Of a DNA stretch of 64,000 nucleotides, positions 36,882 through 56,097 are shown piece after piece (position 1 is the first letter of the stretch; each line of letters starts with the position of its first letter). The notes beneath the pieces are model-generated. The model searched no databases. It was not told the DNA's origin and was given only the letters and a program-made list of their open reading frames with translations. The translations under genes and the position numbers were made by a program. The stretch comes from Parundibacterium terreum (lineage in GTDB: Bacteria > Pseudomonadota > Gammaproteobacteria > Burkholderiales > Burkholderiaceae_D), in assembly GCF_014636315.1 (NCBI RefSeq), contig NZ_BMED01000003.1, positions 248,001 to 312,000 on the forward strand. The letters are read 5' to 3'.

Positions 36882-36924
36882 GTCCTGAGCCAGACCCAAT
36901 CCAGTGCGGTAAAAGCACCACACC

Positions 36925-36962: not shown

Positions 36963-36982
36963 AGTTTGGTGCAATATTAGTT

Positions 36983-37121: not shown

Positions 37122-38507
37122 ATGATCGAGTCTCTCCAACATCTGGCCCAGGCCGGATCCACCAACGAAGCGCTCGCTGCGCAGTTCACCGATCTGGCGC
37201 CGCCGCTGACGATGCGCCAGGCGCTGATAGAAAGCCAGCGCTGCCTGTATTGTTACGACGCACCCTGCACCCGCATCTGCCCCTCAGACATTGATGTGGC
37301 CAACTTCATCGGCAATATCGCGCAGGGCAATATCAACGGCGCGGCCCAGGTCATCCTGCGGGAAAATATCCTGGGCGGCAGTTGCTCACGCGTTTGTCCT
37401 ACCGAGATACTGTGCGAACAGGCTTGCGTGCGCAACCATGATGCCGAAGCGCAGCCGGTGAAGATAGGCCTGCTGCAAAGGCATGCAATTGATCATATGC
37501 AGTTTTCGCAACATCCTTTCCAGCGCGCTGCGGCGACCGGCCGCACGGTAGCTGTGGTTGGTGCCGGCCCTGCCGGGCTGGCTTGTGCGCACCGGCTGGC
37601 GATGCTGGGCAATGAGGTAGTGATCTTCGAGGCGCTGCAAAAACCGGGCGGCCTGAATGAATTCGGCATCGCCAAATACAAGTTGACCGACGACTTTGCG
37701 CAAAAGGAAGTCGAATTCCTGCTGCAGATAGGCGGCATACAGATACGCTACGGCGAAATCCTGGGCGACAAGCTGAGCCTGAAGCAATTGAAACAGGACT
37801 ACGATGCGGTCTTCCTGGGTCTGGGTCTGGGCGCCAGCCGTAAGCTGGGCTTGGTCGGCGAGGATGCGCCGGGTCTGATGGCTGCGGTCGACTATATCTC
37901 CGTGCTGCGCCAGGCAGAAGACCTGAGCAGCCTGCCGCTGGCTTCGCGCTGCCTGGTGATAGGCGCCGGCAACACCGCCATCGATATGGCAGTGCAAATG
38001 GCCAGGCTGGGTGCGGAGGACGTATCTATTGTATACAGGCGCGGCGTGGAGGCTATGTCCGCCACCGGCCACGAGCAGGATATCGCCAAGGCGCACCAGG
38101 TCAGGTTGCGCACCTGGGCCCAGCCGCAGCAGGTATTGCTGGATGAGGCCGGCCGCGTGCGCGGTATGCGCTTTGAGAAAACACAGATGGCTGATGGCAA
38201 ACTGAAGGGCACGGGAGAAACTTTCGAACTGGCCGCCGATGCGATATTCAAGGCCATAGGCCAGACGCTGGATGAAGATCTGGCGCATGATGTATTGGGT
38301 AGTGAGATCAAACTGGCTGGCGACAAGATCCTGGTGGACGAGCATTTTCAGACCTGTATTCCAGGCATCTATGCCGGCGGTGATTGCGTGCAGGCGGGGC
38401 AGGACTTGACCGTGCAAGCGGTGCAGCACGGCAAGCTGGCTGCCCAGGCAATACACCGGCATCTGAGTTCGAACTCCGTCAACGCTACCAGTAAGGAGGC
38501 CGCATAA
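37122..38507 (+). CDS. preT: Dihydropyrimidine dehydrogenase (NAD+), PreT subunit
   Basis: 461 aa flavoprotein of the PreTA enzyme that reduces uracil/thymine to dihydropyrimidines with NADH. N-terminal Fe-S domain with cysteine sets C41, C44, C49, C53 and C88, C92, C98, C102; FAD site VAVVGAGPAGLACA (about 143-156); a second nucleotide fold at LVIGAGNTAIDMAV for NADH. Its stop overlaps the preA start by one base (TAATG), so translation is coupled. Controlled from 36983-37017. Confidence 0.93.
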   Translation: MIESLQHLAQAGSTNEALAAQFTDLAPPLTMRQALIESQRCLYCYDAPCTRICPSDIDVANFIGNIAQGNINGAAQVILRENILGGSCSRVCPTEILCEQACVRNHDAEAQPVKIGLLQRHAIDHMQFSQHPFQRAAATGRTVAVVGAGPAGLACAHRLAMLGNEVVIFEALQKPGGLNEFGIAKYKLTDDFAQKEVEFLLQIGGIQIRYGEILGDKLSLKQLKQDYDAVFLGLGLGASRKLGLVGEDAPGLMAAVDYISVLRQAEDLSSLPLASRCLVIGAGNTAIDMAVQMARLGAEDVSIVYRRGVEAMSATGHEQDIAKAHQVRLRTWAQPQQVLLDEAGRVRGMRFEKTQMADGKLKGTGETFELAADAIFKAIGQTLDEDLAHDVLGSEIKLAGDKILVDEHFQTCIPGIYAGGDCVQAGQDLTVQAVQHGKLAAQAIHRHLSSNSVNATSKEAA

Positions 38508-39781
38508 TGGCTGATCTGAGCATCAATTTCGCCGGCATCAAGGCACCAAATCCTTTCTGGCTGGCTTCCGCACCTCCTACCGACAAGGCCTATAACGTCA
38601 TCCGCGCTTTTGAGGCCGGCTGGGGCGGCGTCGTGTGGAAGACCCTGGGCGAGGACCCGGCGCCGGTCAATGTCTCTTCACGCTATTCCGCGCATTACGG
38701 CAAGAACCGCGAAGTGATGGGCTTCAATAATATCGAGCTGATCACCGACCGCAGCCTGGAAATCAATCTGCGTGAAATCACGCAGGTGAAAAAAGACTGG
38801 CCGGACCGCGCGATGATCGTGTCGATGATGTATCCCTGCGAAGAGGAAAGCTGGGCCAAGGTGTTGCCACTGGTGGAAGCTACCGGTGCCGATGCCATAG
38901 AACTGAACTTCGGCTGTCCGCACGGCATGCCGGAACGCGGCATGGGCGCGGCTGTGGGGCAGGTGCCTGAATATGTGGAAATGGTCACGCGTTGGTGCAA
39001 GAAATATTGTTCGCTGCCGGTGATCGTCAAGCTGACGCCGAATATTACCGATGTACGCCTGCCCGCCCGGGCGGCACTGAATGGCGGTGCCGACGCAGTA
39101 TCGCTGATCAACACCATCAACTCCATTACCTCGCTGGACCTGGACAATATGGTGGCCCGGCCCATTGTTGGCGGCCGCAGCACGCACGGCGGCTATTGCG
39201 GCTCGGCCGTCAAGCCGATCGCGCTGAACATGGTGGCCGAAATTGCTCGCGACCCGGCCACGCATGGCTTGCCTATTTCCGGCATAGGCGGTATTTCCAA
39301 CTGGCGGGATGCGGCGGAATTTATCGCGCTTGGGTCCGGTTCGGTACAGGTGTGCACTGCGGCAATGCTGCATGGTTTTCGCATCGTAGAGCAGATGAAG
39401 GATGGCTTGTCGCGCTGGATGGATGAAAAGGGCTATGCCAGCATAGAAGATTTTCGCGGCAAGGCGGTGGCCAATACGACGGACTGGAAATACCTGGACA
39501 TGAACTACCAGGTGATCGCGCAGATAGACCAGGACAAATGCATACAATGCGGCCGCTGCTATATCGCCTGCGAAGACACCTCGCACCAGTCCATCTCGCA
39601 ACTGATTGCCGATAACGGCGCCAGGAAGTATGAAGTGATCAAGGAAGAATGCGTAGGCTGCAATCTGTGCGAGATCACTTGCCCGGTAGAGCATTGCATC
39701 ACGATGGTGCCGCAAGCCAGCGACAAGCCCTATATGAACTGGACCCAGGATCCGCGCAATCCGCGCGCCGTGGCCGCTTGA
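38507..39781 (+). CDS. preA: Dihydropyrimidine dehydrogenase (NAD+), PreA subunit
   Basis: 424 aa. FMN-binding dihydroorotate-dehydrogenase-like barrel (1-310; ELNFGCPHGMPERGMG, GVVWKTLG) where the pyrimidine is reduced, plus a C-terminal 2[4Fe-4S] ferredoxin part (CIQCGRCYIAC and CVGCNLCEITCP). Partner of PreT. First committed step of the reductive pyrimidine route in this island. AAGGAGG lies in the preT 3' end. Confidence 0.94.
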   Translation: MADLSINFAGIKAPNPFWLASAPPTDKAYNVIRAFEAGWGGVVWKTLGEDPAPVNVSSRYSAHYGKNREVMGFNNIELITDRSLEINLREITQVKKDWPDRAMIVSMMYPCEEESWAKVLPLVEATGADAIELNFGCPHGMPERGMGAAVGQVPEYVEMVTRWCKKYCSLPVIVKLTPNITDVRLPARAALNGGADAVSLINTINSITSLDLDNMVARPIVGGRSTHGGYCGSAVKPIALNMVAEIARDPATHGLPISGIGGISNWRDAAEFIALGSGSVQVCTAAMLHGFRIVEQMKDGLSRWMDEKGYASIEDFRGKAVANTTDWKYLDMNYQVIAQIDQDKCIQCGRCYIACEDTSHQSISQLIADNGARKYEVIKEECVGCNLCEITCPVEHCITMVPQASDKPYMNWTQDPRNPRAVAA

Positions 39782-39812
39782 GCCGGGGAAATCACCGGAG
39801 AAACTGAAATTC

Positions 39813-39827
39813 TTTACCCAGAGTAAA
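39813..39827. promoter_or_regulatory. Degenerate RutR-like site before the NCS1 gene
   Basis: TTTACCCAGAGTAAA keeps the TTTAC/GTAAA arms but is one base shorter and lacks the ACCA/TGGT core on one side. It ends exactly 3 nt before the sigma-54-type promoter, the same layout as at preT. Confidence 0.4.
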
Positions 39828-39830
39828 AAT

Positions 39831-39846
39831 TGGCATGGGGATTGCA
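39831..39846 (+). promoter_or_regulatory. Sigma-54-type promoter of the NCS1-hydA operon
   Basis: TGGCATGGGGATTGCA matches the consensus except one base in the -24 box, with an intact TTGCA and correct spacing. Predicted start near 39857. Confidence 0.6.
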
Positions 39847-39856
39847 TGCTGATGTG

Positions 39857-39894
39857 CAGCATAGCAGGCAGTTTCAAACTGTCCTGCCGTGCTG
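39857..39894 (+). other. Hairpin at the predicted 5' end of the NCS1 mRNA
   Basis: Arms 39857-39874 and 39876-39894 pair nearly throughout (one G-T, one mismatch, one bulge; apical loop about TTCAA). It begins at the base predicted to be +1. No T run follows. May stabilise the mRNA or respond to a ligand. Confidence 0.5.
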
Positions 39895-39979
39895 TATATT
39901 TGTTTCAGCCGAACTCAACAAAAGAAAATTCAGAGGCTGTTGCGTGTTTTAAAAATCCACCCCTAGGGAGATGCGAACC

Positions 39980-42932
<2,953 letters not shown>

Positions 42933-43284
42933 AAAGAAAATTCGTCGGAATCCGGTTTAAAAGTATGACGGACTGATTTTGCAGTTGTCGTTGTTTTTGA
43001 CCTTCAACCGCTCGGGATGCAGCAATTTGTGCTTTACAGAAAATGGATCAGAAATGAACGTTGTTTGAGCCGCAGGCGAGTTTCGTTCATTTCCCATTTT
43101 ATGTAATGCATAAATTGGACAGGAGCAAAGCGCCTGTCCCCGAAGGGCAAGTCTGCGGTCGCCTTCTTTTTGCTTACTTTTTCTTGGCGAAGCAAGAAAA
43201 AGTGAGTGGCTGTCGGGCCACCCCCGACCTGTACCAACGAAGCGCAGGCGTATAGCACGTAGCGAAAGCATAGGAATGCAGACC
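42933..43284. other. hydA-amidohydrolase spacer with repeat-like element
   Basis: No convincing gene; short open frames here lie within a palindromic element. It includes the hairpins GGACAGG/CCTGTCC (43117-43139) and the 14-bp inverted repeat at 43173-43206. Confidence 0.5.
43110..43262. repeat. Candidate dispersed palindromic repeat
   Basis: Contains CTTACTTTTTCTTG and CAAGAAAAAGTGAG (43173-43186 and 43193-43206; 13 of 14 paired plus a G-T) around a 6-nt loop, and the smaller GGACAGG/CCTGTCC hairpin. The text, with its translated AYFFLAKQEKVSGCRATP frame, looks like a repeat I recall from many intergenic regions of Oxalobacteraceae. Only one copy is in this window, so repeat status is from memory. 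Confidence 0.5.
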
Positions 43285-44529
43285 ATGACCCAAGATACCC
43301 TCAAAATCAACGGCGACCGCCTCTGGAAATCCCTGATGGAATTAGCCCAGATCGGCGCCACCCCCAAAGGCGGCGTCAAGCGCCTGGCCCTGACCGACCT
43401 CGACAAGCAAGGCCGCGACCTGGTCACCGGCTGGGCCAGGCAAGCCGGCATGTCCGTCACGGTGGATCAGATAGGCAATGTGTTCATGCGCCGCGACGGC
43501 AAGAACAATGCGCTGCCGCCCATCATGTCCGGCAGCCACATCGACACCCAGCCTACCGGCGGCAAGTTCGACGGCAATTACGGCGTGCTGGCCGCGCTGG
43601 AAGTGGTGCGCACGTTGAACGACCACAAGATACAAACCGAAGCGCCGATAGAAGTCGCCTTCTGGACCAATGAAGAGGGATCACGTTTTGTGCCCGTGAT
43701 GATGGGATCCGGCGTATTCTGCGGCGCCTTTACGCTGGAGCATGCCTATGCCGCCAAGGACACCGAGGGCAAGTCGGTGAAGGATGAATTGAGCCGCATA
43801 GGCTATCTGGGCGAACAGGTGCCTGGCGACCATCCCATAGGTGCGTATTTTGAAACCCATATAGAACAAGGCCCGGTGCTCGAAGATGCCGACAAGGTCA
43901 TCGGCGTGGTGCCTGCCGTGATGGGTCTGTCCTGGTATGACTGCGTGGTCACAGGCATGGAAGCGCATGCAGGCCCGACGCCCATGCATTTGCGCAAGGA
44001 TGCATTGCAGGTCGCCACTAAAATCATGCAGGAAGTCGTCAATATCGGTAACCGCTATCCGCCTTACGGCCGCGGCACCGTGGGCATGGTGCAGGTATTT
44101 CCGAATAGCCGCAATGTCATCCCAGGAGAGGTCAAGTTCAGCATAGACCTGCGCAATGTGAACGACGAGCTGCTGAACAAGATGCATGAAGAGATACTGG
44201 CCTTTGTCGACCAGACCAGCAAGGCGACGGGTCTGGGTGTGACGGTAGAGCGCGTATCCTATTACCCGCCATGCCCCTTCCATCCGGAATGTGTGGATGC
44301 GGTAAGAAGCGCCACCGCCAAGCTCGGCTATTCAACGATGGATGTGGTATCCGGCGCAGGACACGATGCGATCTATGCGGCACGGCTGGCACCGGCCGGC
44401 ATGATCTTCGTTCCCTGCAAGGACGGCATCAGCCACAATGAGATAGAGGACGCCAAATCAGAGCATCTGGAAGCGGGCTGCAATGTGCTGTTGCATGCAA
44501 TGCTGGACCGCGCAAAAATAGTTTCCTGA
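43285..44529 (+). CDS. N-carbamoyl-beta-alanine amidohydrolase (beta-ureidopropionase), M20-type
   Basis: 414 aa zinc-dependent amidase of the hydantoinase/carbamoylase family. Metal-site stretches: SGSHIDTQPTGGKFDGNYGVLAA, FWTNEEGSRF, EQGPVLE and GAGHDAIYA; a dimerisation insert lies between (TGMEAHAGPTPMHLRKDAL). Releases beta-alanine, CO2 and NH3 from the product of dihydropyrimidinase. Allantoate or L-carbamoyl-amino acid activity is possible for this family, but context favours the pyrimidine route. ATG 43285 is preferred over ATG 43276, which touches the AGGA site. Confidence 0.88.
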   Translation: MTQDTLKINGDRLWKSLMELAQIGATPKGGVKRLALTDLDKQGRDLVTGWARQAGMSVTVDQIGNVFMRRDGKNNALPPIMSGSHIDTQPTGGKFDGNYGVLAALEVVRTLNDHKIQTEAPIEVAFWTNEEGSRFVPVMMGSGVFCGAFTLEHAYAAKDTEGKSVKDELSRIGYLGEQVPGDHPIGAYFETHIEQGPVLEDADKVIGVVPAVMGLSWYDCVVTGMEAHAGPTPMHLRKDALQVATKIMQEVVNIGNRYPPYGRGTVGMVQVFPNSRNVIPGEVKFSIDLRNVNDELLNKMHEEILAFVDQTSKATGLGVTVERVSYYPPCPFHPECVDAVRSATAKLGYSTMDVVSGAGHDAIYAARLAPAGMIFVPCKDGISHNEIEDAKSEHLEAGCNVLLHAMLDRAKIVS

Positions 44530-44553
44530 TCAATCGCAACGGCGCAGAATAAT

Positions 44554-44586
44554 GGGGTGGACGATTGTCGTCCGCCCCTTATTATT
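44554..44586 (+). terminator. Terminator-like hairpin before codA
   Basis: GGGGTGGACGA/TCGTCCGCCCC, 11 pairs with one G-T, 3-nt loop, then a T/A-rich tract TTATTATT. It ends the NCS1-hydA-amidohydrolase unit and argues against any codA start inside it. Confidence 0.65.
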
Positions 44587-44616
44587 AACAACGCAAATAT
44601 CCTGGCAGAAGCGAAC

Positions 44617-45894
44617 ATGACCGATATCATCATCCGTAACGCCACGCTGCCGGACGGCAGAAAATCCACAGACATTGCGATCGCCGGCGGCCTCATTACA
44701 GCGGTCGGCCCGCGTCTACCTCTTACCGCGGCGCAGGAAATAGACGCTGCCGGCAATCTGGTCACGCCGCCTTTCGTCGATGCCCACTTCCATATGGACG
44801 CCACGCTCAGCTATGGCCTGCCGCGCGTGAACCAGTCTGGCACCTTGCTGGAAGGGATAGCACTATGGGGTGAACTGAAGCCTTTGCTGACCCAGGAAGC
44901 CCTGATAGAAAGGGCGCTGGAGTATTGCGACTGGGCGGTGGGACGCGGCCTGCTGGCGATACGCTCGCACGTCGATATCTGCGATGACAGCCTGCTGGCG
45001 GTAGAGGCCTTGTTGCATGTTAAAAAACAGGTAGCGCCTTATCTGGATCTGCAACTGGTGGCTTTCCCGCAGGATGGCATCTTGCGCAGCGCGACCGCTT
45101 TGTCCAACCTGAAGCGGGCAATTGCGATGGGCGTCGATGTGGTCGGCGGTATTCCGCATTTTGAACGCACGATGGCAGACGGTGCTGAATCGGTACGCCT
45201 GCTGTGTGAGTTTGCCGCAGACAAGGGCCTGCGGGTGGATATGCACTGCGACGAATCGGACGATCCGCTGTCGCGCCATATAGAAACGCTGGCTTACCAT
45301 ACGCACAGGCTGGGCATGCAGGGCAGGGTGACAGGTTCGCACCTGACGTCCATGCATTCGATGGACAATTATTACGTCAGCAAGCTGCTGCCCCTGATGC
45401 GCGAATCCGGCGTCGCCGCGATCGCCAATCCCTTGATCAACATCACCTTGCAAGGCCGGCACGATACCTATCCGAAGCGGCGCGGCATGACCCGCGTGCC
45501 GGAGATGCTGGCCGCTGGCATCCCGGTGGCTTTTGGCCAGGACTGCACGATGGACCCCTGGTATAGCCTGGGGTCCGGCGACATGCTGGAAGTAGCGCAT
45601 ATGGGCCTGCATGTGGCGCAGATGACAGGGCAGGATGCGATGCGCGCCTGCTTCAAGGCAGTGACGGAAACACCGGCCCAGATACTCGGGCTGCAAGGTT
45701 ATGGGTTGGAAGTCGGCTGCAATGCCGATATGGTGATGCTGGATGCAGGGGATGCTATCGAGGCAATACGCCTGCGCGCAGCCCGGCTGTTTGTGATCCG
45801 GCGTGGCAAGATCATCAGCCGTATGCCGGCCCCGCATGCCACGCTTGATCTGGCGGGAAGGCCGTCACTGACGGGCTTCAGGCTGGGCCGGTAA
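44617..45894 (+). CDS. codA: Cytosine deaminase
   Basis: 425 aa amidohydrolase converting cytosine to uracil and ammonia. Metal ligands HFHMD, MHCDESDD and SHLTSMH are present, and GQDCTMDPWYSLGSGDMLEV parallels the E. coli CodA stretch GHDDVFDPWY with D-D replaced by D-C. ATG 44617 is used; a longer frame from 44557 would start in the terminator hairpin. Feeds the uracil route encoded upstream. Related deaminases (creatinine, isocytosine) cannot be excluded. Confidence 0.85.
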   Translation: MTDIIIRNATLPDGRKSTDIAIAGGLITAVGPRLPLTAAQEIDAAGNLVTPPFVDAHFHMDATLSYGLPRVNQSGTLLEGIALWGELKPLLTQEALIERALEYCDWAVGRGLLAIRSHVDICDDSLLAVEALLHVKKQVAPYLDLQLVAFPQDGILRSATALSNLKRAIAMGVDVVGGIPHFERTMADGAESVRLLCEFAADKGLRVDMHCDESDDPLSRHIETLAYHTHRLGMQGRVTGSHLTSMHSMDNYYVSKLLPLMRESGVAAIANPLINITLQGRHDTYPKRRGMTRVPEMLAAGIPVAFGQDCTMDPWYSLGSGDMLEVAHMGLHVAQMTGQDAMRACFKAVTETPAQILGLQGYGLEVGCNADMVMLDAGDAIEAIRLRAARLFVIRRGKIISRMPAPHATLDLAGRPSLTGFRLGR

Positions 45895-45918: not shown

Positions 45919-46320
45919 TTAAGCTTCAGGCTTCAGATAAAATGCATCCGGCAATTGCTTGGCTGCGGTAGTCAGCTTGATATCGCCTTTCAGGTTGGTC
46001 AATATCACTTCCAGTTCAGGTCCACCCAATTCGATGATGACCTGGCGGCAGGCACCGCAAGGGGCGATAGGGTCTTCGGTATCGCCGACCACAGCGATCT
46101 TGCTGAAATCGCCTGGTTTGTAGCCGGAGGCTACAGCGCTGAAGAAGGCGGTGCGCTCTGCGCAATTGCACAGGCCATAGGATGCATTTTCCACGTTGCA
46201 GCCGTGGAAGACCTTGCCGTCCTTGCCCAGCAGCGCTGCGCCTACCTTGAATTTGGAATACGGTGTGTAGGCTTTCAGGCGGGCCGCGACGGCTTCCTGG
46301 ATTAACTGTTCTTGGTTCAT
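45919..46320 (-). CDS. cdd: Cytidine deaminase
   Basis: 133 aa, the small homotetrameric type. Zinc site: NCAERTAFFSA (Cys and catalytic Glu) and PCGACRQVI (two Cys). Deaminates cytidine and deoxycytidine. ATG 46320 (MNQEQLIQEAVAARLKAYTPYS) matches the family; upstream frame is spurious. Last gene of the leftward nucleoside operon, separated from the oxygenase gene by an 11-bp hairpin, converging on codA with a 24-bp gap. Confidence 0.95.
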   Translation of the reverse strand: MNQEQLIQEAVAARLKAYTPYSKFKVGAALLGKDGKVFHGCNVENASYGLCNCAERTAFFSAVASGYKPGDFSKIAVVGDTEDPIAPCGACRQVIIELGGPELEVILTNLKGDIKLTTAAKQLPDAFYLKPEA

Positions 46321-46421: not shown

Positions 46422-47273
46422 TTACTGCTTCGGTTTCTTGGCACCCAGTTCTATCAGGCGCTCTTCCAGGTACTCGCCGGCGGTGTAGCGGTCGGACAGT
46501 TTTACGTCCAGGCGCGGGTGCAGGAACAGCGGCAGCGACACGCGCGATTTCTTCGCTTCGTCGCCGGTCGGGTTCAACACACGGTGGCTGGTAGAAGGAT
46601 AGTAGCCTTCCGATGCTTCATCCAGCATGTCGCCGATGTTGACGACCAGCATGCCGAAATCGCAAGGTACGTTAAACCACTTGTCATCCTTGCCCTGCAC
46701 TTGCAGGCCGGCTTGCGTTGCCGCAGGCAGGATGGTCAGCAGGTTGATGTCTTCATGCGCTGCGGCACGTACCGAGCCCGGCTCTTCATCACCGGTCAGT
46801 GGCGGGTAATGCAGTACGCGCAGCAAGGTCTGTTCGCTGCCGGTGATCATGTCCGACAAAGGCATGGAGTACTTGGCCTTGATGTCTGCCGGTGTGTGGT
46901 CTTCCACCCATTGCAACAGTTCTGCCGCCAGCTTGGCGCCGTCGTCATAGTATTTGCGTGCAGCTTCCGACACTTCTGCCGGGAAACGGCCCCAAGGGTA
47001 GATGTGGTAAAACTCTTTCAGGTCGCGCTTGGTGTTGCCCTTGGCGGTTTCCGATACCTTGGGCGAGAAATAGCCGTCCATCTTTTCCGGATGGAAGGCG
47101 TATTTGCTCTTGGCGTCGGTCTGGAAGAAGTCGTACCATTCCTTGTAGATGGTTTCCAGCGTTGCTTGCGACAGCGGATGGTTCTTCAGTACGCCAAAGC
47201 CGGTGCGGTGCAGGCTTTCAGTAAACTTCTGTGCTGCATCCGGTGCCAGGTAATCAACAGGTTCTATATGCAT
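46422..47273 (-). CDS. 2-oxoglutarate/Fe(II) oxygenase, isopenicillin N synthase-like
   Basis: 283 aa. The double-stranded beta-helix core has the iron triad H173, D175 (HED) and H230 (TSHRV), and R244-x-S246 to hold 2-oxoglutarate. An N-terminal DIOX_N-like part (1-110) precedes it. It lies 22 bp after iunH and before cdd, inside the nucleoside uptake/catabolic operon, so the substrate is probably a nucleoside, nucleobase or sugar part. Fungal enzymes of this superfamily hydroxylate thymine (thymine-7-hydroxylase) or pyrimidine deoxynucleosides at C2'. The function here is inferred only from place. Confidence 0.88.
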   Translation of the reverse strand: MHIEPVDYLAPDAAQKFTESLHRTGFGVLKNHPLSQATLETIYKEWYDFFQTDAKSKYAFHPEKMDGYFSPKVSETAKGNTKRDLKEFYHIYPWGRFPAEVSEAARKYYDDGAKLAAELLQWVEDHTPADIKAKYSMPLSDMITGSEQTLLRVLHYPPLTGDEEPGSVRAAAHEDINLLTILPAATQAGLQVQGKDDKWFNVPCDFGMLVVNIGDMLDEASEGYYPSTSHRVLNPTGDEAKKSRVSLPLFLHPRLDVKLSDRYTAGEYLEERLIELGAKKPKQ

Positions 47274-47295: not shown

Positions 47296-48300
47296 TTACT
47301 TGGTCAGCGCAGGCAACAACCAGCCGCTGCTCAGGGTTTGATCGATCAGGTTTTCGCAAGCTTTGGCATCGACTTCCATGCAGACGCGCGTTTCCGGTTT
47401 GTCTTTTTCCCAGCCGGCTTGCGGATAAGGGATGGTGCCTATCTTGTCCATCATGGTCTGGCCGTTGGCGATGCCATCCATTGCCACGCGCACGCGGCCG
47501 GATTTGGTCTTGAACATTTCCGGTGCGACCAGCCATACAAAAGCCAGTACATCGTGGCCGAAGCAGCCGTGGCCCATGTTAGGACGGATGCTGCTATAGA
47601 AATCGCTGTAGAAATTCACTGCGTGCGACAAGGTGTCCATCGCCACATGCTTATGCTGTTCTGCCAGACGCTTGAAGAAGCTGGACATCAATACCACGCG
47701 GTGCGTGACATCCAGGCCTACCATGGTCAGGTCCCAGCCTGCAGTGAATACCAGGTCCGCTGCATCAGGATCGTTCCATACATTGGCTTCTGCCACCGGC
47801 GATACATTGCCGGGTTCATCGACCGTGCCCGCCATCAAGACCACTTGCTTCAGCAGCTTGGGCAGCTTGGGTTCCAGCTTCAGTGCCAGGCCGAGGTTGC
47901 CCAGCGGGCCGACTGCGACCAGCGTGATTTCGCCTGGGTGCTTGCGCGCCATATCGACGATAAATTCAGCCGCGCTGCGTTCTTCTGCCTTACCTTCTAC
48001 GGTCACGCGGCTAGGCAGGTTGCCCAGGCCGTCGGCGCCGTGGATAAATGCGGGAGGAACGCCGGGAGCCTTGGCGAAAGGCACAGGCACGCCCTGGGCG
48101 ACAGGAATTTCACGGCCGGCGATACGGGTCAGGTACAGGGCATTGATGGTTGCCTGCTCTACCGTGACATTGCCGAAAGTCGTCGTGATACCGATCAGGT
48201 CGATGTCCGGGTGAGCCAACGCAAAGTACAGCGCCATTGCGTCATCGACACCTGGATCGGTGTCAAAGATGACCTTATGTTTTGCTGTGACATTTTGCAT
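47296..48300 (-). CDS. Nucleoside hydrolase (IunH family)
   Basis: 334 aa. Splits ribonucleosides to base and ribose. The calcium-binding N-terminal motif DTDPGVDDA is intact; EANVWNDPDAADLVF and later GHGCFGHDVLAF (catalytic His region) follow. Base preference cannot be read from the sequence; pyrimidines fit the cluster. ATG 48300 is chosen over ATG 48306, which abuts AGGAGA. In the 126-bp gap upstream an inverted repeat TCTGGTA/TACCAGA (48319-48354) may modulate expression. Confidence 0.92.
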   Translation of the reverse strand: MQNVTAKHKVIFDTDPGVDDAMALYFALAHPDIDLIGITTTFGNVTVEQATINALYLTRIAGREIPVAQGVPVPFAKAPGVPPAFIHGADGLGNLPSRVTVEGKAEERSAAEFIVDMARKHPGEITLVAVGPLGNLGLALKLEPKLPKLLKQVVLMAGTVDEPGNVSPVAEANVWNDPDAADLVFTAGWDLTMVGLDVTHRVVLMSSFFKRLAEQHKHVAMDTLSHAVNFYSDFYSSIRPNMGHGCFGHDVLAFVWLVAPEMFKTKSGRVRVAMDGIANGQTMMDKIGTIPYPQAGWEKDKPETRVCMEVDAKACENLIDQTLSSGWLLPALTK

Positions 48301-48426
48301 ATTCATTCTCCTAACTATTCTGGTACTAGCCGTGTTACTGAACCTAATACCAGAGTTTGTCTTAAGTGGACCCGGTTCAAGGAGGCCTTAGGAACTTGTG
48401 TGCTTTAGATTGCTTTAGTGTGATTC

Positions 48427-49404
48427 TTAGCGTGACTTGACGAAAGGTATGCCGATTGCCTTGGGCGCCACCGACTTGGCCATGAAACCTGCCAGCACGA
48501 TGACTGTGACAACATAAGGAATCATCTGTATCAGCGAGCCGGGGATCTTGCCTATGCCGGGCAATTCTACGCCTTCCATCTGGATTTGCAGCGCAGCGAA
48601 AAAACCGAACATCAGGCAGCCCATGGCGGTGTACAGCGGGCGCCAGTTGCCGAATACCAGCGCGGTCAAGGCCAGGAAGCCGTTACCGGCCGACATGTCG
48701 CGCAGGAAGAAGCCGCTTTGCACAATGGCCAGGTAGGCGCCGGAGAAAGAGCACAGTACGCCGGCGCACATCATTGCCAGGAAGCGGGTGCGCTCCACAT
48801 GGATACCGGCGGCATCGGCCGCGTGCGGGTTTTCACCCACTGCGCGCAGGCGCAGGCCGAAGCGGCTATGGTAGATGGTCCAGTGCACAACCGGGATCAG
48901 CGCAAATGCCAGATAGACCAGCGCGGTGTGGCCGCCTATCAGCTTGCCGTAAAACCAGCCCAGGAAAGGAATATTGGCCACTGCATCCGTACCCGGCAAG
49001 ATGATGTCGAACAGGCGCGCCTGGCCCAGGTCCGGCGTACGTCCGCCCTGGCCGAAAAAGAATTGCGCCAGCACAAAAGACAGGCCGCTGACGGCAATAT
49101 TGATGGCGATACCGGCAACCAGCTGATTGCCACGTTGCGTGATGCTGACATAACCCTGCAGCAAGGCGATCACCAGGGAGATGCCTATGCCCGCGGCGAT
49201 GCCCAGCCAGGGGTTTTGGGTTACATACGCGACCGACGCGGAAACGAAGGCGCTGGCCAGCATCTTGCCTTCCAGTGCGAGATCGATCACGCCGCTGCGT
49301 TCTGCAAACAGGCCGGCCATCGCGGCGAATATCAGTACCGGCGCATTGCGTATGGTGGAAACCAGGATGCTGGCTAGATGAAAGTCTTCAAACATGGCTG
49401 TCAC
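48427..49404 (-). CDS. Nucleoside ABC importer permease 2
   Basis: 325 aa, about eight to ten membrane helices; BmpA-associated branched-chain/ribose-type permease fold (FAAMAGLFAERSGVIDLALEGKML near the start, NPHAADAAGIHVERTRFLAMM coupling loop). Pairs with the next permease. Starts with GTG 49404 overlapping the TGA of that gene (GTGA); an ATG three codons in is an alternative. Confidence 0.9.
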   Translation of the reverse strand: MTAMFEDFHLASILVSTIRNAPVLIFAAMAGLFAERSGVIDLALEGKMLASAFVSASVAYVTQNPWLGIAAGIGISLVIALLQGYVSITQRGNQLVAGIAINIAVSGLSFVLAQFFFGQGGRTPDLGQARLFDIILPGTDAVANIPFLGWFYGKLIGGHTALVYLAFALIPVVHWTIYHSRFGLRLRAVGENPHAADAAGIHVERTRFLAMMCAGVLCSFSGAYLAIVQSGFFLRDMSAGNGFLALTALVFGNWRPLYTAMGCLMFGFFAALQIQMEGVELPGIGKIPGSLIQMIPYVVTVIVLAGFMAKSVAPKAIGIPFVKSR

Positions 49405-50492
49405 TTGGAACGTGAGGGTAAGCGTTTAATCAGGGCCACGATGGCCGGCGCATAGAAGTTTTCCATGGCGCCGCAAAACAGGATGATCAGGCCCTGGATG
49501 AAAATAAAGGTTTCAGGCGGAATGTTCGATTTTTCCAGCGACAGGTCGAAGCCACCCTGTATCAGCGCGCCGAACAAAATAGATGACAGCAGGATGCCGA
49601 CCGGATGCTGCCTGCCCATCAGCGCAATCGCAATCCCGATGAAGCCGGCGCCAGCCGGGAAGTTCAGCGCCAGGTAATGGGTAGAGCCCATCAATGCGTT
49701 GACCGAACCTAGGCCCGCCAGCGCGCCGGAAATCAGCATTGCGACGATGATCATCTTGGTAATGGAAACGCCTGCATAGTGCGCAGCGTGCTTGTTCAGG
49801 CCGGTAGCGCGCAACTGGTAGCCCCAGGAAGAGCGCCATACGGCGACGCCGTAGATCACCAGCGCCAGCAGGGCCAGCAGGAAGCTGATATTCAGCGGCG
49901 TGTCGCCAAGGATAGGGAACCAGGAGCTGATCTTGGGCAGCCATGCGGTTTCTGCAAACAGGCGGCTGGCCGGATTTTGCTGACCCGCAGGAATCAGATA
50001 GGTAACGATGATGAAGTTCATCAGGCTGGCAGCGATGAAGTTGAACATGATCGTCGTCACGACGATATGGCTGCCGCGTTTGGCTTGCAGGTAAGCCGGC
50101 AACCATGCCCATGCTGCGCCGAACAAGGCGCTGCCCAGCATCGCCAGCGGGATCAGGGCCCAGGCCGGCAGGCTGGAATCCAGCCACAGGATGACCATGG
50201 TCAAGCCCAGGCCGCCCAGATACATCTGGCCTTCGGAACCGATATTGAACAGGCCGGCTTGCATGGCGATCGATACCGACAGGCCGGTGAAGATAAAGGT
50301 GCTGGCGTAAAACAGCGTATAACCTAGTCCTTCCGGGTTCATCACGGCGCTATTGACCAGGATGCCCAGCGATTCCAGCGGATTTTCACCCAGCAGGTAG
50401 ATCACCAGTGCCGCCACCAGCAGGGCGGACAGCAGGTTCAGTACCGGCAAGACTACAGCGGTGGCCCAGCGCGGGAGATCGTTCGTACTCAT
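49401..50492 (-). CDS. Nucleoside ABC importer permease 1
   Basis: 363 aa, about ten membrane helices, same family (FTGLSVSIAMQAGLFNIGSEGQMYLGG; coupling loop RATGLNKHAAHYAGVSITKM). ATG 50492 overlaps the ATPase stop by 4 bp. Resembles permeases of BmpA/Med-type purine and pyrimidine nucleoside importers such as YufP/NupP. Confidence 0.9.
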   Translation of the reverse strand: MSTNDLPRWATAVVLPVLNLLSALLVAALVIYLLGENPLESLGILVNSAVMNPEGLGYTLFYASTFIFTGLSVSIAMQAGLFNIGSEGQMYLGGLGLTMVILWLDSSLPAWALIPLAMLGSALFGAAWAWLPAYLQAKRGSHIVVTTIMFNFIAASLMNFIIVTYLIPAGQQNPASRLFAETAWLPKISSWFPILGDTPLNISFLLALLALVIYGVAVWRSSWGYQLRATGLNKHAAHYAGVSITKMIIVAMLISGALAGLGSVNALMGSTHYLALNFPAGAGFIGIAIALMGRQHPVGILLSSILFGALIQGGFDLSLEKSNIPPETFIFIQGLIILFCGAMENFYAPAIVALIKRLPSRSK

Positions 50493-52015
50493 TTATTCAG
50501 GCCCCCCATCATCAAGCCTATTTTGGTTGTATCAAATTCATTGGCGGCCAGCTCGCCGGTAATGCGTCCACCGCACATGACCAGGATGCGGTCGGCGAGG
50601 GATTTCACTTCTTCCAGTTCCACCGATACCAGCAGGATGGCTACGCCAGAGTCGCGCATCTTCAGCAACTGCGCGTGTATGCTTTCTATCGTGCCTATGT
50701 CCACGCCGCGGGTAGGCTGGCCAACCAGCATCAGCTTCGGCGCGGCTTCCATTTCGCGCGCGATGACCACTTTTTGCTGGTTGCCACCGGACAGCAGGGC
50801 GATGCGCAAGCCGGGGTTGGCCGGGCGCACGTCAAACATCTTCAGCAGGTCAGCGCAGCGGCGCATCACCGATTTGAAATCGATCAGGCCGAAACCCTTG
50901 CTGGCCTTGCGCTGGTAGCCCAGCATCAGATTCATCATCACCGAAAAGTCCTTGACGACGCCGTCGCGCAAGCGGTCTTCCGGTATATGCGAAATGCCGA
51001 GCTGGCGGAATTCCGCAGGCAGGCCGTCGGCATCGCGGCGGCGGCCAAACGGCAGCAGCTTGTCGAGGAAACTGATCTTGCCCTTGCTGGGCAGGCGCAT
51101 GCCGCTCAGCACTTCCAGCAATTCAGTCTGGCCGTTGCCGGAGACCCCGGCGATCGCGACGATTTCACCGGCACGGATATTAAAATTGATATTGTCCAGC
51201 AGCGTCACGTTCTGGCCGTTCTGCAGGTTCAGGCCTTCCACGGTCAGCACGGTGGCGCCCGGGTTGTAGGGCGCGCGCGGCAACTGGGTTTCTATAGGAC
51301 GGCCGACCATCATATTGGCCAGCTCTTCCTTATTGGTATTGGCTGTCTGCACCGCACCGACCACGCGTCCGGCGCGCATCACCGTCACGTTGTCCGTGAT
51401 GGCCAGGATTTCCTGTAGCTTGTGCGTGATCAATACGATGGTCTTGCCCTGCTGCTTGAACAGGCGCAACACTTCAAACAGCGATTCGGTTTCCTGTACC
51501 GTCAGCACCGCGGTGGGCTCATCCAGGATCAGGATGTTGGCGCTGCGATAAATCTGCTTCAGGATTTCCACCCTTTGCTGCGCGCCGACCGACAAGTCCT
51601 GTATGGTTGCCAGCGGATCGATATCCAGCGAATAGCGCTGGCAGATTTCCCTCAGCTTGGCTTCCACGTCCTTGCGATGGGCCTTCAGGCGCACACCGCC
51701 TTCAGAACCAAGCATGACGTTGTCCAGCACCGTCATGTTTTCCACCAGCATGAAATGCTGGTGCACCATACCTATGCCCAGGCGTATCGCTTCCTGGCTG
51801 CTGCGGATGTGGCGCTCTTCGCCATTCAGCAGTATCTGCCCACTGTCGGACTTGTAATAGCCATACAGAATGCTCATCAGCGTTGACTTGCCTGCACCGT
51901 TCTCGCCGATCACGCCATGTATCGATCCCTGCGCGATGGAAAAACTCACATCGGCATTCGCTTGCACTGCTCCGAAGCGTTTGGAAATATGTCGAAATTC
52001 TACTGCTGGCTGCAT
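50489..52015 (-). CDS. Nucleoside ABC importer ATPase (double domain)
   Basis: 508 aa with two fused ABC domains. The first has Walker A GENGAGKST, signature LSVGAQQRVEILKQIYR and Walker B ILILDEPTAVLT. The second has GVSGNGQTELLEVL in place of a classical Walker A and LSGGNQQKVVIAREM with LMLVGQPTRGVD, the usual degenerate second half of sugar/nucleoside importers of the RbsA type. ATG 52015 is used; GTG 52024 is in frame. Confidence 0.93.
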   Translation of the reverse strand: MQPAVEFRHISKRFGAVQANADVSFSIAQGSIHGVIGENGAGKSTLMSILYGYYKSDSGQILLNGEERHIRSSQEAIRLGIGMVHQHFMLVENMTVLDNVMLGSEGGVRLKAHRKDVEAKLREICQRYSLDIDPLATIQDLSVGAQQRVEILKQIYRSANILILDEPTAVLTVQETESLFEVLRLFKQQGKTIVLITHKLQEILAITDNVTVMRAGRVVGAVQTANTNKEELANMMVGRPIETQLPRAPYNPGATVLTVEGLNLQNGQNVTLLDNINFNIRAGEIVAIAGVSGNGQTELLEVLSGMRLPSKGKISFLDKLLPFGRRRDADGLPAEFRQLGISHIPEDRLRDGVVKDFSVMMNLMLGYQRKASKGFGLIDFKSVMRRCADLLKMFDVRPANPGLRIALLSGGNQQKVVIAREMEAAPKLMLVGQPTRGVDIGTIESIHAQLLKMRDSGVAILLVSVELEEVKSLADRILVMCGGRITGELAANEFDTTKIGLMMGGLNK

Positions 52016-52109
52016 GCTGATCACTAAGTAGGTTCAGGGAGGGGCATGGATGCGGCAAAAGCTCTGGGTTCTTGCCGCATATCCTCGGTCGGGTCGCTGG
52101 TTTGCTAAA

Positions 52110-53126
52110 TCAGATAGGGCATTTATTGTTTTCGCGGTAGTCAACTACTTTGACCTTGCCGCTGACGATGTCCTGCTTGGCTGCGTTGATGCGTTTTTCC
52201 ATGTCGGCGCTGATCAGGCTGCGGTTATCCTTGTCCAGTGCCCAGTCCACGCCGCCTTCTTTCAGGCCCTTGTTGGTGACGCCGGCTTGCCAAGTACCGT
52301 TTTTGACTTGCATGAAGCTGTCATACACGGCATTGTCCACACGCTTCATCATCGAAGTCAGCATCGTGCCCGGATGCAGGTAGTTCTGGTTGGAATCGAC
52401 GCCGATGGCCAGCTTGCCTTTTTCCTTGGCTGCCTGCAGCGTGCCCATGCCGCTACCGCCGGCGGCTGCGAATACCACGTCCACACCGCGTTCAAACTGC
52501 GCGCGCGCCAGTTCGCTGCCCTTGGCCGGATCGTTCCATGCAGTTGGCGTTGTGCCCACCATGTTCTGGGTCACGTCGATTTTTGCATCCACCGATTTCG
52601 CGCCTTGCGCATAGCCGCAGGCGAACGAACGTATCAGCGGGATATCCATGCCGCCGACAAAGCCGACTTTCTTGGTCTTGCTGGCCAGCGCTGCCGCCAC
52701 GCCTACCAGGTAGGAGCCTTCCTGCTCCTTGAACAGCACCGAGTTGACGTTGGGGCCTGCAGCCACGCTGTCAATGACGACAAATTTCACTTTTGGAAAT
52801 TCTTTGGCGACTGTCTGTACAGCCTGGCCTTGTGCAAAGCCGATGGCGGCGATCAGATCCATGTTCTTGCGGGCCAGGTTGCGCAATACCTGCTCGGTCT
52901 GGGTATCGCTGCTGACCTGTACTTCCAGGAAGTTGATCTTGGTTTCCTGCTTGAAGCGGCTTGCGCCTTCGGAAGCGGACTGATTGAACGATTTGTCGAA
53001 CTTGCCGCCCGCATCGTAGACCACCGCCAGTTTAGGATCGGCTGCGTACGCATTGACTACGGCGCCGGCACTGAACAGGGCCGCAACGGCGAAGCAAAGG
53101 CGATTGAGTTTTACGTTCAAATTCAT
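52110..53126 (-). CDS. Nucleoside-binding protein, BmpA/Med family
   Basis: 338 aa. Signal peptide through about residue 28 (AVVNAYA|ADPK). Family motifs: YDAGGKFDKSFNQSASEG, IAAIGFAQGQAVQTVA, VGFVGGMDIPLIRSFACGY and DVVFAAAGGSGMGT. Periplasmic partner of the ATPase and permeases 86 bp downstream. AGGA lies 7-8 nt before ATG 53126. BMP-family importers carry purine or pyrimidine nucleosides. Confidence 0.93.
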   Translation of the reverse strand: MNLNVKLNRLCFAVAALFSAGAVVNAYAADPKLAVVYDAGGKFDKSFNQSASEGASRFKQETKINFLEVQVSSDTQTEQVLRNLARKNMDLIAAIGFAQGQAVQTVAKEFPKVKFVVIDSVAAGPNVNSVLFKEQEGSYLVGVAAALASKTKKVGFVGGMDIPLIRSFACGYAQGAKSVDAKIDVTQNMVGTTPTAWNDPAKGSELARAQFERGVDVVFAAAGGSGMGTLQAAKEKGKLAIGVDSNQNYLHPGTMLTSMMKRVDNAVYDSFMQVKNGTWQAGVTNKGLKEGGVDWALDKDNRSLISADMEKRINAAKQDIVSGKVKVVDYRENNKCPI

Positions 53127-53608: not shown

Positions 53609-54538
53609 CTAGACAGCCGCCCGGCTTTGCATGAACTGCTCCACCTCGCTGCGTTGCGGAATAGAAGTCTGGGCTCCCAGCTTGGTCACCGTCAGGGCTG
53701 CGGTATATTGCGCTTCCATGCTGGCGGTGCGGATATCCAGTCCCTTGGCGATGCCGACCGCAAATGCGCCGACAAAGGTATCGCCTGCGGCGGTGGTATC
53801 CACGACATCAACCTTGATAGCGGCGATGAACTGGCTGCCGCCTTGTTCCGTGATGCACACGCCATGCTCGCCCATGGTCAGCAATACGACGGCGACGCCG
53901 CGTTGCAGCAGTTGCTCCGAGGCGCGCTGTGCGCTTTCCTGATTGCTGACCTGGATACCGCTTAATTGGGATGCCTCGGTTTCATTGACGACCAAATAGT
54001 CCACCTGCTTCAGCAAATCATCGCTAAGCGCCTGTACTGGCGCAGGATTCAGGATGACTTTGACGCCATGCTGCTTTGCCAATTGGATGGCACGGGTGAC
54101 GGTAGAAAGAGGAGTTTCCAGCTGGCACACCAGCAGTTGTGCGGAGGAGATGGCGGGCAATGCCGCTTCTACGTCTTCCGCCGACAGCGATGCATTGGCG
54201 CCGGCGGCCAGCACGATGCTGTTGTCGCCCTGGTCGGTCACGATGATGCCGGCTACACCGGTGGCGGTATCCACTACTGCAGACAGGTTGCTGACGTCGA
54301 TGCCGTCATTTGCCAGGCAGCGCAAAGAGTATTGGCCGAAGCCGTCATCGCCTACGCGGCCGATAAAGGCTACATCGGCTCCCTGGCGCGCAGCGGCAAC
54401 AGCCTGGTTGGCACCCTTGCCGCCGGGAATTTGCCGGAATTCATGACCGCTTAAAGTCTCACCTAGGGCTGGCATGCGCGGTGTACGAAACACCAGATCC
54501 ATGTTGACGCTACCAACAACAGCGATGCGTGGCTTCAT
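53609..54538 (-). CDS. rbsK: Ribokinase
   Basis: 309 aa PfkB-family kinase forming ribose 5-phosphate. N-terminal VVGSVNMDLVFRTPRMPALGETLSG and GGKGANQAVAAARQGA bind the sugar; VVDTTAAGDTFVGAFAVG holds the anion hole and catalytic Asp. It disposes of ribose freed by the nucleoside hydrolase. Divergent from psuK across a 408-bp spacer that has a LacI-type operator; may be co-transcribed with the importer genes downstream. Confidence 0.93.
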   Translation of the reverse strand: MKPRIAVVGSVNMDLVFRTPRMPALGETLSGHEFRQIPGGKGANQAVAAARQGADVAFIGRVGDDGFGQYSLRCLANDGIDVSNLSAVVDTATGVAGIIVTDQGDNSIVLAAGANASLSAEDVEAALPAISSAQLLVCQLETPLSTVTRAIQLAKQHGVKVILNPAPVQALSDDLLKQVDYLVVNETEASQLSGIQVSNQESAQRASEQLLQRGVAVVLLTMGEHGVCITEQGGSQFIAAIKVDVVDTTAAGDTFVGAFAVGIAKGLDIRTASMEAQYTAALTVTKLGAQTSIPQRSEVEQFMQSRAAV

Positions 54539-54946
54539 TTAAGTTCTCGCAAAAAGGCAAAGCCAGAGGACTGGCCAAAAAACGGGTAAAGATCAAGCAA
54601 GATCAGCGAAAGTTCATGCTGTTTTCAGCGAAGAACGGGATTTCGCATTGCTGCTAAAAGACAAAAAAATAGGCCGCGCAATCGTTTGCGTAGCCGATTC
54701 TCTATTTAACTATGGCGCGGCAAAGCAAGTCAAGAATTAATTCCTCAGGTTTTACTTTTTAGACGCATTCCCCAAAACAATTAGGCATCCTGCATTATTT
54801 TGGTGAGGGAAAATAACTTAGCCCATTCATCAATAAACAAATGTCGTGCGTGATAAACTAATGTTTTATTTGGCTGTTTGAGTCGCGACAACCGCGAATT
54901 CCTACTCTCTTTTTTTCCACTTTCTTCTTCGATAAGACCCTGCACC
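54539..54946. other. rbsK-psuK divergent control region
   Basis: No gene seen. Contains the LacI-type palindrome at 54677-54690 and a GCCAG/CTGGC hairpin near 54563. No clear -35/-10 pair was found. Confidence 0.5.
54677..54690. promoter_or_regulatory. LacI/RbsR-type operator
   Basis: CGCAATCGTTTGCG, a palindrome broken only at one symmetric pair, with the AANCGNTT core usual for LacI-family sites. It lies between divergent rbsK and psuK. The RbsR-like protein at 30385-31392 is the only LacI regulator in the window. Confidence 0.5.
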
Positions 54947-56053
54947 GTGACGGATGTTTCAAAAAAAGACCAGCTATTCCAGTTGATACAGGCCAACCCT
55001 TTCATATCGCAACAAGAGCTGGCCGGACAGCTGCAATTGTCGCGTTCAGCGGTGGCCGGCTATATTGCGGGCCTGATACGCGAGCGCAGGATACTTGGGC
55101 GCGCCTATGTGCTGCCGGGTGAAAATCCTGTTGTCTGTATAGGCGGTGCCAATATGGACCGCAAGGTACGTACGCTGGGGGCTTTGCAGATGGGCACCTC
55201 CAATCCCGTTTCTCAGCATGAGAGCCTGGGCGGGGTAGCGCGCAATATTGCAGAAAACCTGGCGCGGCTTGGCGCACCGGTCAGCCTGCTGACGGCACTG
55301 GGCGACGACGCTGCGGCGCAGGCCATGCTGGCGCAGGCAGAGTCAGTGGGAATGGACATGCGCGGCAGCCTGCAACTGGCGGGTAGTGCCAGCGGCAGTT
55401 ATACAGCAGTGCTGGATGATCTTGGAGAGATGGTATTGGCCCTGTCTCATATGCAACTGTGTGATGAGCTGACGCCGCAGTTCCTGGCATCGCGGCAGCC
55501 GCAGCGCGCCGCAGCTGCCATGACCATTGCCGACCTGAACTTGCCTGAAGCCAGTATCCGGCTCTTGCTGCAGGATGCTGCACGCGATGCCGTCCCGCTG
55601 GTATTGGTGGCGGTATCGCAACCGAAGATGGCGCGCCTGCCGGCAGACCTGCATGGCCTGCGTCTGCTGATCCTGAACCAGGGCGAGCTGGAGGCGCGCG
55701 TCGGCAAGACATTAGAAAATGAAGAGCAGATCGCCGAAGCTTGCCGTGTGGTGCAGCAGCAGGGCGCGCAAGACCTGATCGTTACTTTTGGCGGCGACGG
55801 CGTGCTGTATACGTCGCCAAATACGTCGCCGCTCGGCGTGCAGAGGCTGGCGGCGCCCAAGGTCGCTGTTGTTGACGTGACCGGTGCCGGCGATGCATTT
55901 TCTGCCGCCGTATGCTGGTCGCTGAGCCGCGAGCCAGGTGACCTGGCGCTGGCTTGCCGGCACGGGCTGACGCTGGCTGCAATGACAATACAAAGCGCTG
56001 CAACCGTGTGCACGGATCTGACGCCGGCCAGCCTGGCTGAATTATTGGCGTAG
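54947..56053 (+). CDS. psuK: Pseudouridine kinase with N-terminal helix-turn-helix
   Basis: 368 aa. Residues about 4-60 form a winged helix-turn-helix (KDQLFQLIQANPFISQQELAGQLQLSRSAVAGYIAGLIRERRI), and the rest is a PfkB kinase with GGVARNIAENLARLG and VVDVTGAGDAFSAAV. Same layout as E. coli YeiI. Next to psuG, it should phosphorylate pseudouridine at 5'. GTG 54947 is chosen so the protein begins just before the DNA-binding domain; a longer frame from 54878 lacks support. The fused DNA-binding domain may make it its own regulator. Confidence 0.85.
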   Translation: MTDVSKKDQLFQLIQANPFISQQELAGQLQLSRSAVAGYIAGLIRERRILGRAYVLPGENPVVCIGGANMDRKVRTLGALQMGTSNPVSQHESLGGVARNIAENLARLGAPVSLLTALGDDAAAQAMLAQAESVGMDMRGSLQLAGSASGSYTAVLDDLGEMVLALSHMQLCDELTPQFLASRQPQRAAAAMTIADLNLPEASIRLLLQDAARDAVPLVLVAVSQPKMARLPADLHGLRLLILNQGELEARVGKTLENEEQIAEACRVVQQQGAQDLIVTFGGDGVLYTSPNTSPLGVQRLAAPKVAVVDVTGAGDAFSAAVCWSLSREPGDLALACRHGLTLAAMTIQSAATVCTDLTPASLAELLA

Positions 56054-56097
56054 TTACCAAGATTTGAAAATTGTTTGAACGTATAGAGGAATAGAAA

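Follow-up and report, generated by a model that had tools for sequence, protein, structure and literature searches.

A 2-oxoglutarate/Fe(II) oxygenase recurrently linked to bacterial nucleoside genes and its possible action on the ribose 2' position

Known oxygenases and routes of nucleoside use

Pyrimidine nucleoside 2'-hydroxylase (EC 1.14.11.3) acts in fungi, where 2'-hydroxylation of pyrimidine nucleosides is followed by nucleoside hydrolysis, the step that the nucleoside hydrolase IunH would carry out on the product of the oxygenase described here (OXY). For the pyrimidine nucleoside 2'-hydroxylase of Neurospora, PDN2'H, the title of the original report and the sentence citing it indicate the same reaction as was proposed for OXY in an earlier note on this DNA (Genz et al., ACS Catal 2025, cited in PMC12709175). 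In the excerpted text of the citing paper, FJS/PHYHD1 (PF05721) is described as catalyzing the 2-oxoglutarate-dependent 2'-O-demethylation of free nucleosides, a bacterial FJS is said to have been selected for feeding a pyrimidine auxotroph, and the catabolism of 2'-O-methyl nucleosides is termed largely unexplored (PMC12709175). The Deo pathway (deoCABD) also serves the use of deoxynucleosides, but by phosphorolysis and an aldolase, without an oxygenase. The enzyme superfamily and both chemistries considered below are already known, in other enzymes. The crystal structure 3on7, released in 2010, is listed among enzymes of still undefined function in the part of an ethylene review that mentions it (PMC10467617). 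A literature search, which had most subscription journals outside its reach, returned no function for the OXY family and no account of operons of the kind described here.

The oxygenase, its operon and its predicted structure

OXY is encoded at positions 46422-47273 on the minus strand of the window, i.e., the whole stretch of 64,000 nucleotides that was analysed; the open reading frame has an ATG start, is free of internal stops and specifies 283 amino acids. It was recognized as a 2-oxoglutarate/Fe(II) oxygenase from the reading frame and from Pfam. The Pfam domains 2OG-FeII_Oxy (PF03171; 64.3 bits, cut-off 23) and DIOX_N (PF14226; 40.5 bits, cut-off 27.3) were the only ones reported at E values up to 0.001, and NCBIfam models gave zero matches. 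The metal ligands are H173, D175 and H230 (H173-E-D175), the 2-oxoglutarate site comprises R244/S246 and Y156, and the HxD...H triad, the RxS motif and the jelly-roll fold place the protein in the 2OG/Fe(II) oxygenase superfamily, PF03171 type. The earlier description of an intact oxygenase with H173, D175, H230 and R244/S246 was borne out by the reading frame, the residues and both domains. Membership of the PHYHD1/FJS family was ruled out, the PF05721 domain not being found on OXY at E values up to 0.001.

The stop of iunH (47296..48306, minus strand; PF01156) at 47296 leaves 22 bp to OXY; the nearest NCBIfam models of this nucleoside hydrolase, RihC, UriH and RihA, each scored below cut-off. 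Cytidine deaminase (cdd, 45919..46320, minus strand; Pfam and NCBIfam) follows 101 bp downstream. Upstream of iunH and on the same strand, Pfam identified a nucleoside-type ABC importer with two BPD_transp_2 permeases (48427..49404 and 49401..50492), an ATPase with two ABC domains (50489..52024) and a PnrA/Bmp-type substrate-binding protein (52110..53126). The placement given in the earlier note, on one strand 22 bp after iunH, before cdd and downstream of the Bmp-ABC importer, was confirmed by Pfam. The ribokinase gene rbsK (53609..54538, minus strand) exceeds the cut-offs of TIGR02152 and NF008353; since 482 bp separate it from bmp, it possibly has its own transcript. Divergent from rbsK is a pair (54878..57006, plus strand; Pfam and NCBIfam) consisting of a psuK-like kinase (HTH and PfkB), for which the 'pseudouridine kinase' model stayed below cut-off, and a psuG-like pseudouridine-5'-phosphate glycosidase (PF04227), so that pseudouridine catabolism adjoins nucleoside uptake. 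This pair is context for the use of RNA-derived nucleosides. On the other side, a run of reductive pyrimidine catabolism genes (preT-like, preA, NCS1 permease, dihydropyrimidinase, carbamoylase and cytosine deaminase-like; 37122..45894, plus strand; NCBIfam) converges on cdd, and the gene content as a whole marks the region as a pyrimidine nucleoside and base catabolic island.

Some further features of the window were recorded. A 19-nt inverted repeat, 89% complementary, lies upstream of preT (36915-36972) and is a possible operator; a comparison of inverted repeats across the intergenic regions gave no clear operator common to them. A LacI-family regulator (30385-31416), nearest to the RbsR/PurR models though below cut-off, lies about 15 kb from the operon and is a possible regulator. 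A Lys/Ala/Pro-rich repeat protein with KPAAKKAAAKPAA units and a histone H1-like make-up is encoded at 28797-29666.

The best NCBIfam models for the importer ATPase, permease and binding protein are putative vitamin B6 importer subunits, far below cut-off. These matches would suit an oxygenase acting on a nucleoside-like compound that is not a nutrient, such as a nucleoside antibiotic, a 5'-modified nucleoside or a cofactor fragment taken up by the Bmp-type transporter, and the related family includes AdaV, which we take to have a nucleotide substrate. The general salvage company of OXY (cdd, udk and rbsK, with deoD and add near two Colwellia copies) and its wide distribution suggest instead a common substrate, and we consider a non-nutrient substrate very unlikely.

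An AlphaFold2 model of OXY, built from a 30-sequence alignment, reached a pLDDT of 89.6 and a pTM of 0.90, with residues 76-80 below 50. Its fold matches were 3on7 (Z 37.0), 3oox (30.9), thymine 7-hydroxylase 5c3p (29.4), SpoC (28.5) and gibberellin 2-oxidase (27.7), where Z-scores less than 1 apart count as tied and fold likeness alone does not establish function. The best match of known function is 5c3p, with an rmsd of 2.2 over 263 residues; that SpoC and gibberellin 2-oxidase score nearly as high counts against reading a nucleoside function from this match. In thymine 7-hydroxylase, the substrate is contacted by N87, E122, R190, Y217, F292 and N294, according to the section consulted (PMC4787775). 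In the HMMER alignment, where the chain index is the number used in that paper plus 2, R190 and the stacking F292 correspond to the identical R152 and F250 of OXY, while N87, E122, Y217 and N294 correspond to M65 (Q in most homologues), H90, I176 and H252; R152, H90, I176, F250 and H252 accordingly make up the predicted substrate pocket. OXY therefore keeps the stacking Phe and the Arg at 2-oxoglutarate but differs in the other contacts, and with only two of six substrate residues identical, plain thymine 7-hydroxylase identity was ruled out. The kept Phe occurs in all five chains of the alignment and the kept Arg in at least four, which makes them weak and not base-specific evidence for a base ligand.

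These comparisons bear on the view that OXY oxidizes the base rather than the sugar, as a methyl-pyrimidine or modified-base oxygenase resembling thymine 7-hydroxylase or an N-demethylase, with the free base or the nucleoside as its substrate. Among solved relatives of known function, thymine 7-hydroxylase is nearest in fold, and its profile match ranks with the best; R190 and F292 are retained, and the uracil/thymine PreTA genes adjoin the operon in the window and stand in the same run at one further locus (L244). Against this, N87, E122, Y217 and N294 are replaced, R190 and F292 are common to other family enzymes, the partners Udk and RbsK point to nucleoside and ribose, and PreTA processes thymine without oxidation. 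Base oxidation is thus judged unlikely, and the oxidation of thymine, offered as an option in the earlier note, has lost ground because four of the six substrate residues differ.

Distribution and gene linkage of the family

Of 245 home-family genomes, 24 carry OXY (E <= 1e-60); the counts are 39 of 369 for the home class (E <= 1e-50) and 32 of 398 for the home phylum (E <= 1e-45), these three samples overlapping. In the class of genome G798, read as Alphaproteobacteria, it occurs in 18 of 385 genomes (E <= 1e-50, with the L200 protein as query). Among the best 80 of 572 confirmed relatives, the closest named relatives of the gene are from Undibacterium and Solimicrobium. A search of plasmids gave 12 records at 58-62% identity and a Tistrella record at 44.6%, the other listed matches being below 30%. 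A tandem pair of OXY genes with a 23 bp gap, sharing 43% and 52% identity with the window protein, was seen at L175:7596-9382, and two copies are also present in genomes G273 and G290.

Each of the 24 home-family OXY genomes has a nucleoside hydrolase gene directly upstream of OXY, including one in which IunH is just 38% identical to that of the window; L205 and L216 were scored as linked by hand, because a longer antisense reading frame masked IunH. Outside the family, 3 of 39 loci of the home class (from 37 genomes; L162, L167 and L168) are nucleoside-linked by a same-strand rule applied to L161-L199, a fragment from G336 being excluded. Among 26 further loci of the phylum sample, viewed with about 1.5 kb on either side only, nupC lies directly upstream on the same strand in six (L147, L151, L154, L156, L157 and L158). 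In the collection of named genomes, 13 of the best 80 of the 572 confirmed relatives are linked (L001-L004, L015, L023, L025, L028, L049, L052, L065, L066 and L068). Chance neighbourhood of OXY and nucleoside genes was ruled out by the 24 of 24 in the family together with the recurrence elsewhere.

In the second class, 8 of the 18 loci are nucleoside-linked according to BLAST labels. The order rbsK-iunH-OXY-bmp-ABC-permease-permease, optionally ending in cdd, is found in six of them (L200, L243, L244, L245, L248 and L252, with rbsK not found in L252); in L244, it is preceded by preT-preA, whose products are 55% (PreT) and 70% (PreA) identical to those of the window. L256 holds the tail of such a bmp-ABC operon at a contig end, and L253 has nupC-OXY, with 33% identity to the NupC query. 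Other arrangements include udk-rbsK-bmp-ABC-perm-perm-iunH-OXY, udk-nupC-OXY in Alteromonadaceae and iunH-ECF component-OXY-iunH in Kaistia. The cut-offs for Udk were exceeded in L023, one of the two was exceeded in L168 and neither in L212. The importer beside OXY can thus be of the Bmp-ABC or the NupC type, or possibly an ECF component (L015), with either IunH or Udk as the next enzyme. The nucleoside role suggested earlier gains from this recurrence of OXY with IunH, RbsK, Udk, NupC, Bmp-ABC, Cdd and once PreTA in unlike gene orders; the co-occurrence with iunH and bmpA, which the earlier note had proposed as a check, was found both in the complete OXY-IunH pairing of the family and in the Bmp-ABC operons of the second class.

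At some loci, the surroundings extend further into nucleic acid breakdown. In some Undibacterium-type genomes, the same-strand run reaches TonB-receptor-like, 5'-nucleotidase, S1/P1 nuclease and adenosine deaminase-like genes; the S1/P1 nuclease and 5'-nucleotidase genes belong to the runs of L210-L213 and L003 (Pfam at L212 only), and they make the input of the operon look like nucleic acid. At two Colwellia loci (L022 and L045; models checked at L022 only), deoD, add and a nuclease-like gene are divergent from OXY, with nupC and udk farther off. One type of TonB-dependent receptor (cluster c104) is common to OXY loci of unlike bacteria (L220:5639-7885, L022:2968-5301, L045:3063-5396 and L222:2462-3487), and a protein resembling it by eye is encoded next to a weak PF00591 match at another place in the home genome. 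Such a receptor is a possible outer-membrane route for pieces of nucleic acid.

At 58-65% identity, OXY lacks nucleoside neighbours in the loci seen from Vibrio, Shewanella and Aeromonas and in most of those from Colwellia and Thalassotalea. The earlier note had named frequent occurrence of close homologues in unrelated operons as evidence that would count against it, and this applies in part, since most of these gammaproteobacterial copies lack a nucleoside neighbour. In small genomes of the home class, the gene immediately before OXY and on its strand resembles dihydrouridine synthase (Dus-like, cluster c44) in five loci (L176, L179, L181, L182 and L194), and OXY follows a DsrE/TusC-like run in two small genomes (L169 and L177) and purM-purN-like genes in three. 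The Dus, DsrE and formyltransferase domains were confirmed by Pfam at one locus each, and the names of the remaining neighbours at these loci are presumed from their sequences. At L254:5706-9307, OXY lies between what we take to be hscB/hscA-like genes and a ferredoxin-like gene, and at L257 (7015) and L258 (8939), a gene presumed to be ferredoxin-like directly follows it.

These loci raise the alternative that OXY has a general role outside imported nucleosides, e.g., in RNA modification or the repair of damaged nucleotides, and was recruited to nucleoside operons in some lineages. The stand-alone copies of Vibrio, Shewanella, Aeromonas, Colwellia and Thalassotalea and the Dus-like, DsrE/TusC-like and hscA-like/ferredoxin-like neighbours speak for it; however, none of these pairings was observed as widely as that with nucleoside genes, in which two or three types of transporter and two kinds of subsequent enzyme take part, and the pocket is near-invariant in linked and stand-alone copies alike. 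In 133 aligned sequences (35 linked and 98 stand-alone), R152, Y156, R169, H173, D175, H230, R244 and K86 are invariant, and I176 and F250 (132 each), H252 (130), S246 (128) and H90 (125) are nearly so. The two groups differ at position 65, which is Q in 85 of 98 stand-alone sequences and M in 12, Q in 8, Y and F in 5 each, L in 2 and other residues in 3 of the 35 linked ones, and at position 174, where G predominates in the linked sequences (21 of 35) and E in the stand-alone ones (88 of 98). Near-identical pockets suggest one substrate class for both groups, and a general role is considered quite unlikely.

A FastTree tree of 147 sequences required seven changes of the linkage label, three of them forced by supported branches; the OXY trees have long branches, so that six or seven changes is a soft figure and two or three are forced. 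Absent from the trees are the six loci of the phylum sample in which nupC precedes OXY, and nine sequences for which no reading frame was called (L001, L014, L016, L027, L035, L046, L055, L066 and L105); L196 entered the linkage, pocket and deoC comparisons and is absent from the 132-row alignment.

Deoxyribose genes, proposed role and comparison with known systems

The home genome is a draft of 6.37 Mb in 16 contigs, 99.31% complete. A search across it for deoC (TIGR00126) found none, and a PF00591 search for thymidine phosphorylase returned two matches, one below cut-off and one strong, which was read as TrpD from its sequence and a TrpC-like neighbour; thymidine kinase is present. The lack of thymidine phosphorylase and deoxyribose genes, previously noted for the window, therefore extends beyond it. 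In the home family, deoC is missing in 21 of 24 OXY genomes and in 22 of 28 controls without OXY, so its absence is a habit of the family. Outside the family, deoC is present in 35 of 56 OXY genomes vs 3 of 52 controls not matched for relatedness. This difference argues that OXY does not simply stand in for deoC and that it is tied to nucleoside catabolism generally. Of 50 genomes behind named loci, 39 carry deoC. Among OXY sequences with data on both linkage and deoC, 36 of 41 linked cases lack deoC vs 20 of 80 stand-alone cases (Fisher p 2e-11, uncorrected for relatedness), i.e., 60 of the 80 stand-alone cases have it; an earlier set, before the second class was added and three cases were dropped (L195 and L199 as second copies in one genome, L219 as identical to L004), gave 30 of 35 vs 14 of 72. 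L066 is linked with a weak deoC match, and L022 and L045, which have deoC, were scored as stand-alone. In the second class, deoC occurs in 3 of the 10 unlinked genomes and in none of the 8 linked ones. Once corrected for relatedness, the contrast rests on three independent pairs on supported branches, a mean of 1.4 of which ran in the expected direction, and it is not significant. The contrasts within OXY genomes and between OXY and non-OXY genomes point in opposite ways, and neither is taken as proof.

The gene is intact, its predicted fold is confident, the metal and 2-oxoglutarate site is conserved, the linkage recurs, and the home genome has no deoC or thymidine phosphorylase. IunH and Udk are ribonucleoside enzymes, and for an oxygenase standing between import and such enzymes, the simplest role would be to make a ribonucleoside from something that is not one. 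We give an even chance to the proposal that we prefer, drawn from gene context and sequence, in which imported nucleosides, probably pyrimidine ones, are oxidized by OXY at the ribose 2' position, yielding ribonucleosides for IunH, Udk and RbsK. Nucleosides from environmental DNA and RNA would enter through Bmp-ABC (NupC in other lineages); OXY, with Fe(II), 2-oxoglutarate and O2, would take a nucleoside unsuited to IunH and Udk and oxidize its ribose at the 2' position, and the product would be an ordinary ribonucleoside. IunH would cleave this to base and ribose, the ribose passing to RbsK and a pyrimidine base to the PreTA pathway; alternatively, Udk would phosphorylate it. We infer the substrate, the 2' position and the direction of flux, and the sequence itself does not single out the 2' position.

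Two versions of the 2' proposal were considered: OXY may hydroxylate C2' of (pyrimidine) 2'-deoxynucleosides, or it may strip the 2'-O-methyl group from nucleosides as formaldehyde. Hydroxylation is favoured by the abundance of deoxynucleosides, the runs with S1/P1 nuclease and 5'-nucleotidase and the missing deoC of the home genome, although it would seem redundant in the many OXY genomes with deoC; demethylation, absent from the earlier note, is favoured by how often OXY and deoC occur in one genome and fits as well as deoxynucleoside conversion. The deoC tests, meant to part the two versions, do not separate them. The deoC counts in OXY genomes and controls lead us to hold them even, and each on its own is doubtful.

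Compared with described systems, the closest is SO_2589 of Shewanella oneidensis (PDB 3on7), a full-length homologue (phmmer E 1.4e-113 over residues 1-278 of 283) that belongs to the same homologue group with 56-58% identity by Foldseek and a VIA Z of 37.0. In the loci seen from other Shewanella genomes, its relatives stand alone. Fungal thymine 7-hydroxylase (PDB 5c3p-5c3s) shares with OXY the fold (Z 28.8-29.4), the HxD...H and RxS motifs and the equivalents of R190 and F292; it differs in about 25% identity and four of six substrate residues, and in that OXY adjoins nucleoside enzymes. FJS/PHYHD1 belongs to PF05721, whereas OXY matches PF03171 and PF14226 only; what they share is the class of 2OG/Fe(II) chemistry. 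Of the Deo pathway, deoC and thymidine phosphorylase are absent from the home genome, while deoC is present in many other OXY genomes. It may be advanced tentatively, again from sequence and gene order, that the proteobacterial OXY family turns DNA-derived deoxynucleosides (or 2'-O-methyl nucleosides of RNA) into ribonucleosides by an O2-dependent route parallel to the Deo pathway, and that 3on7 has this function too. The idea is readily testable, given a short substrate list, simple assays and the solved homologue 3on7. If true, bacteria, many of them without the deoxyribose aldolase route, could live on nucleic acid using ribonucleoside enzymes alone; an oxygen-dependent step, for deoxynucleosides or 2'-O-methyl nucleosides, would join bacterial nucleic-acid scavenging, and an oxygenase family spread over two proteobacterial classes, 3on7 included, would gain a function.
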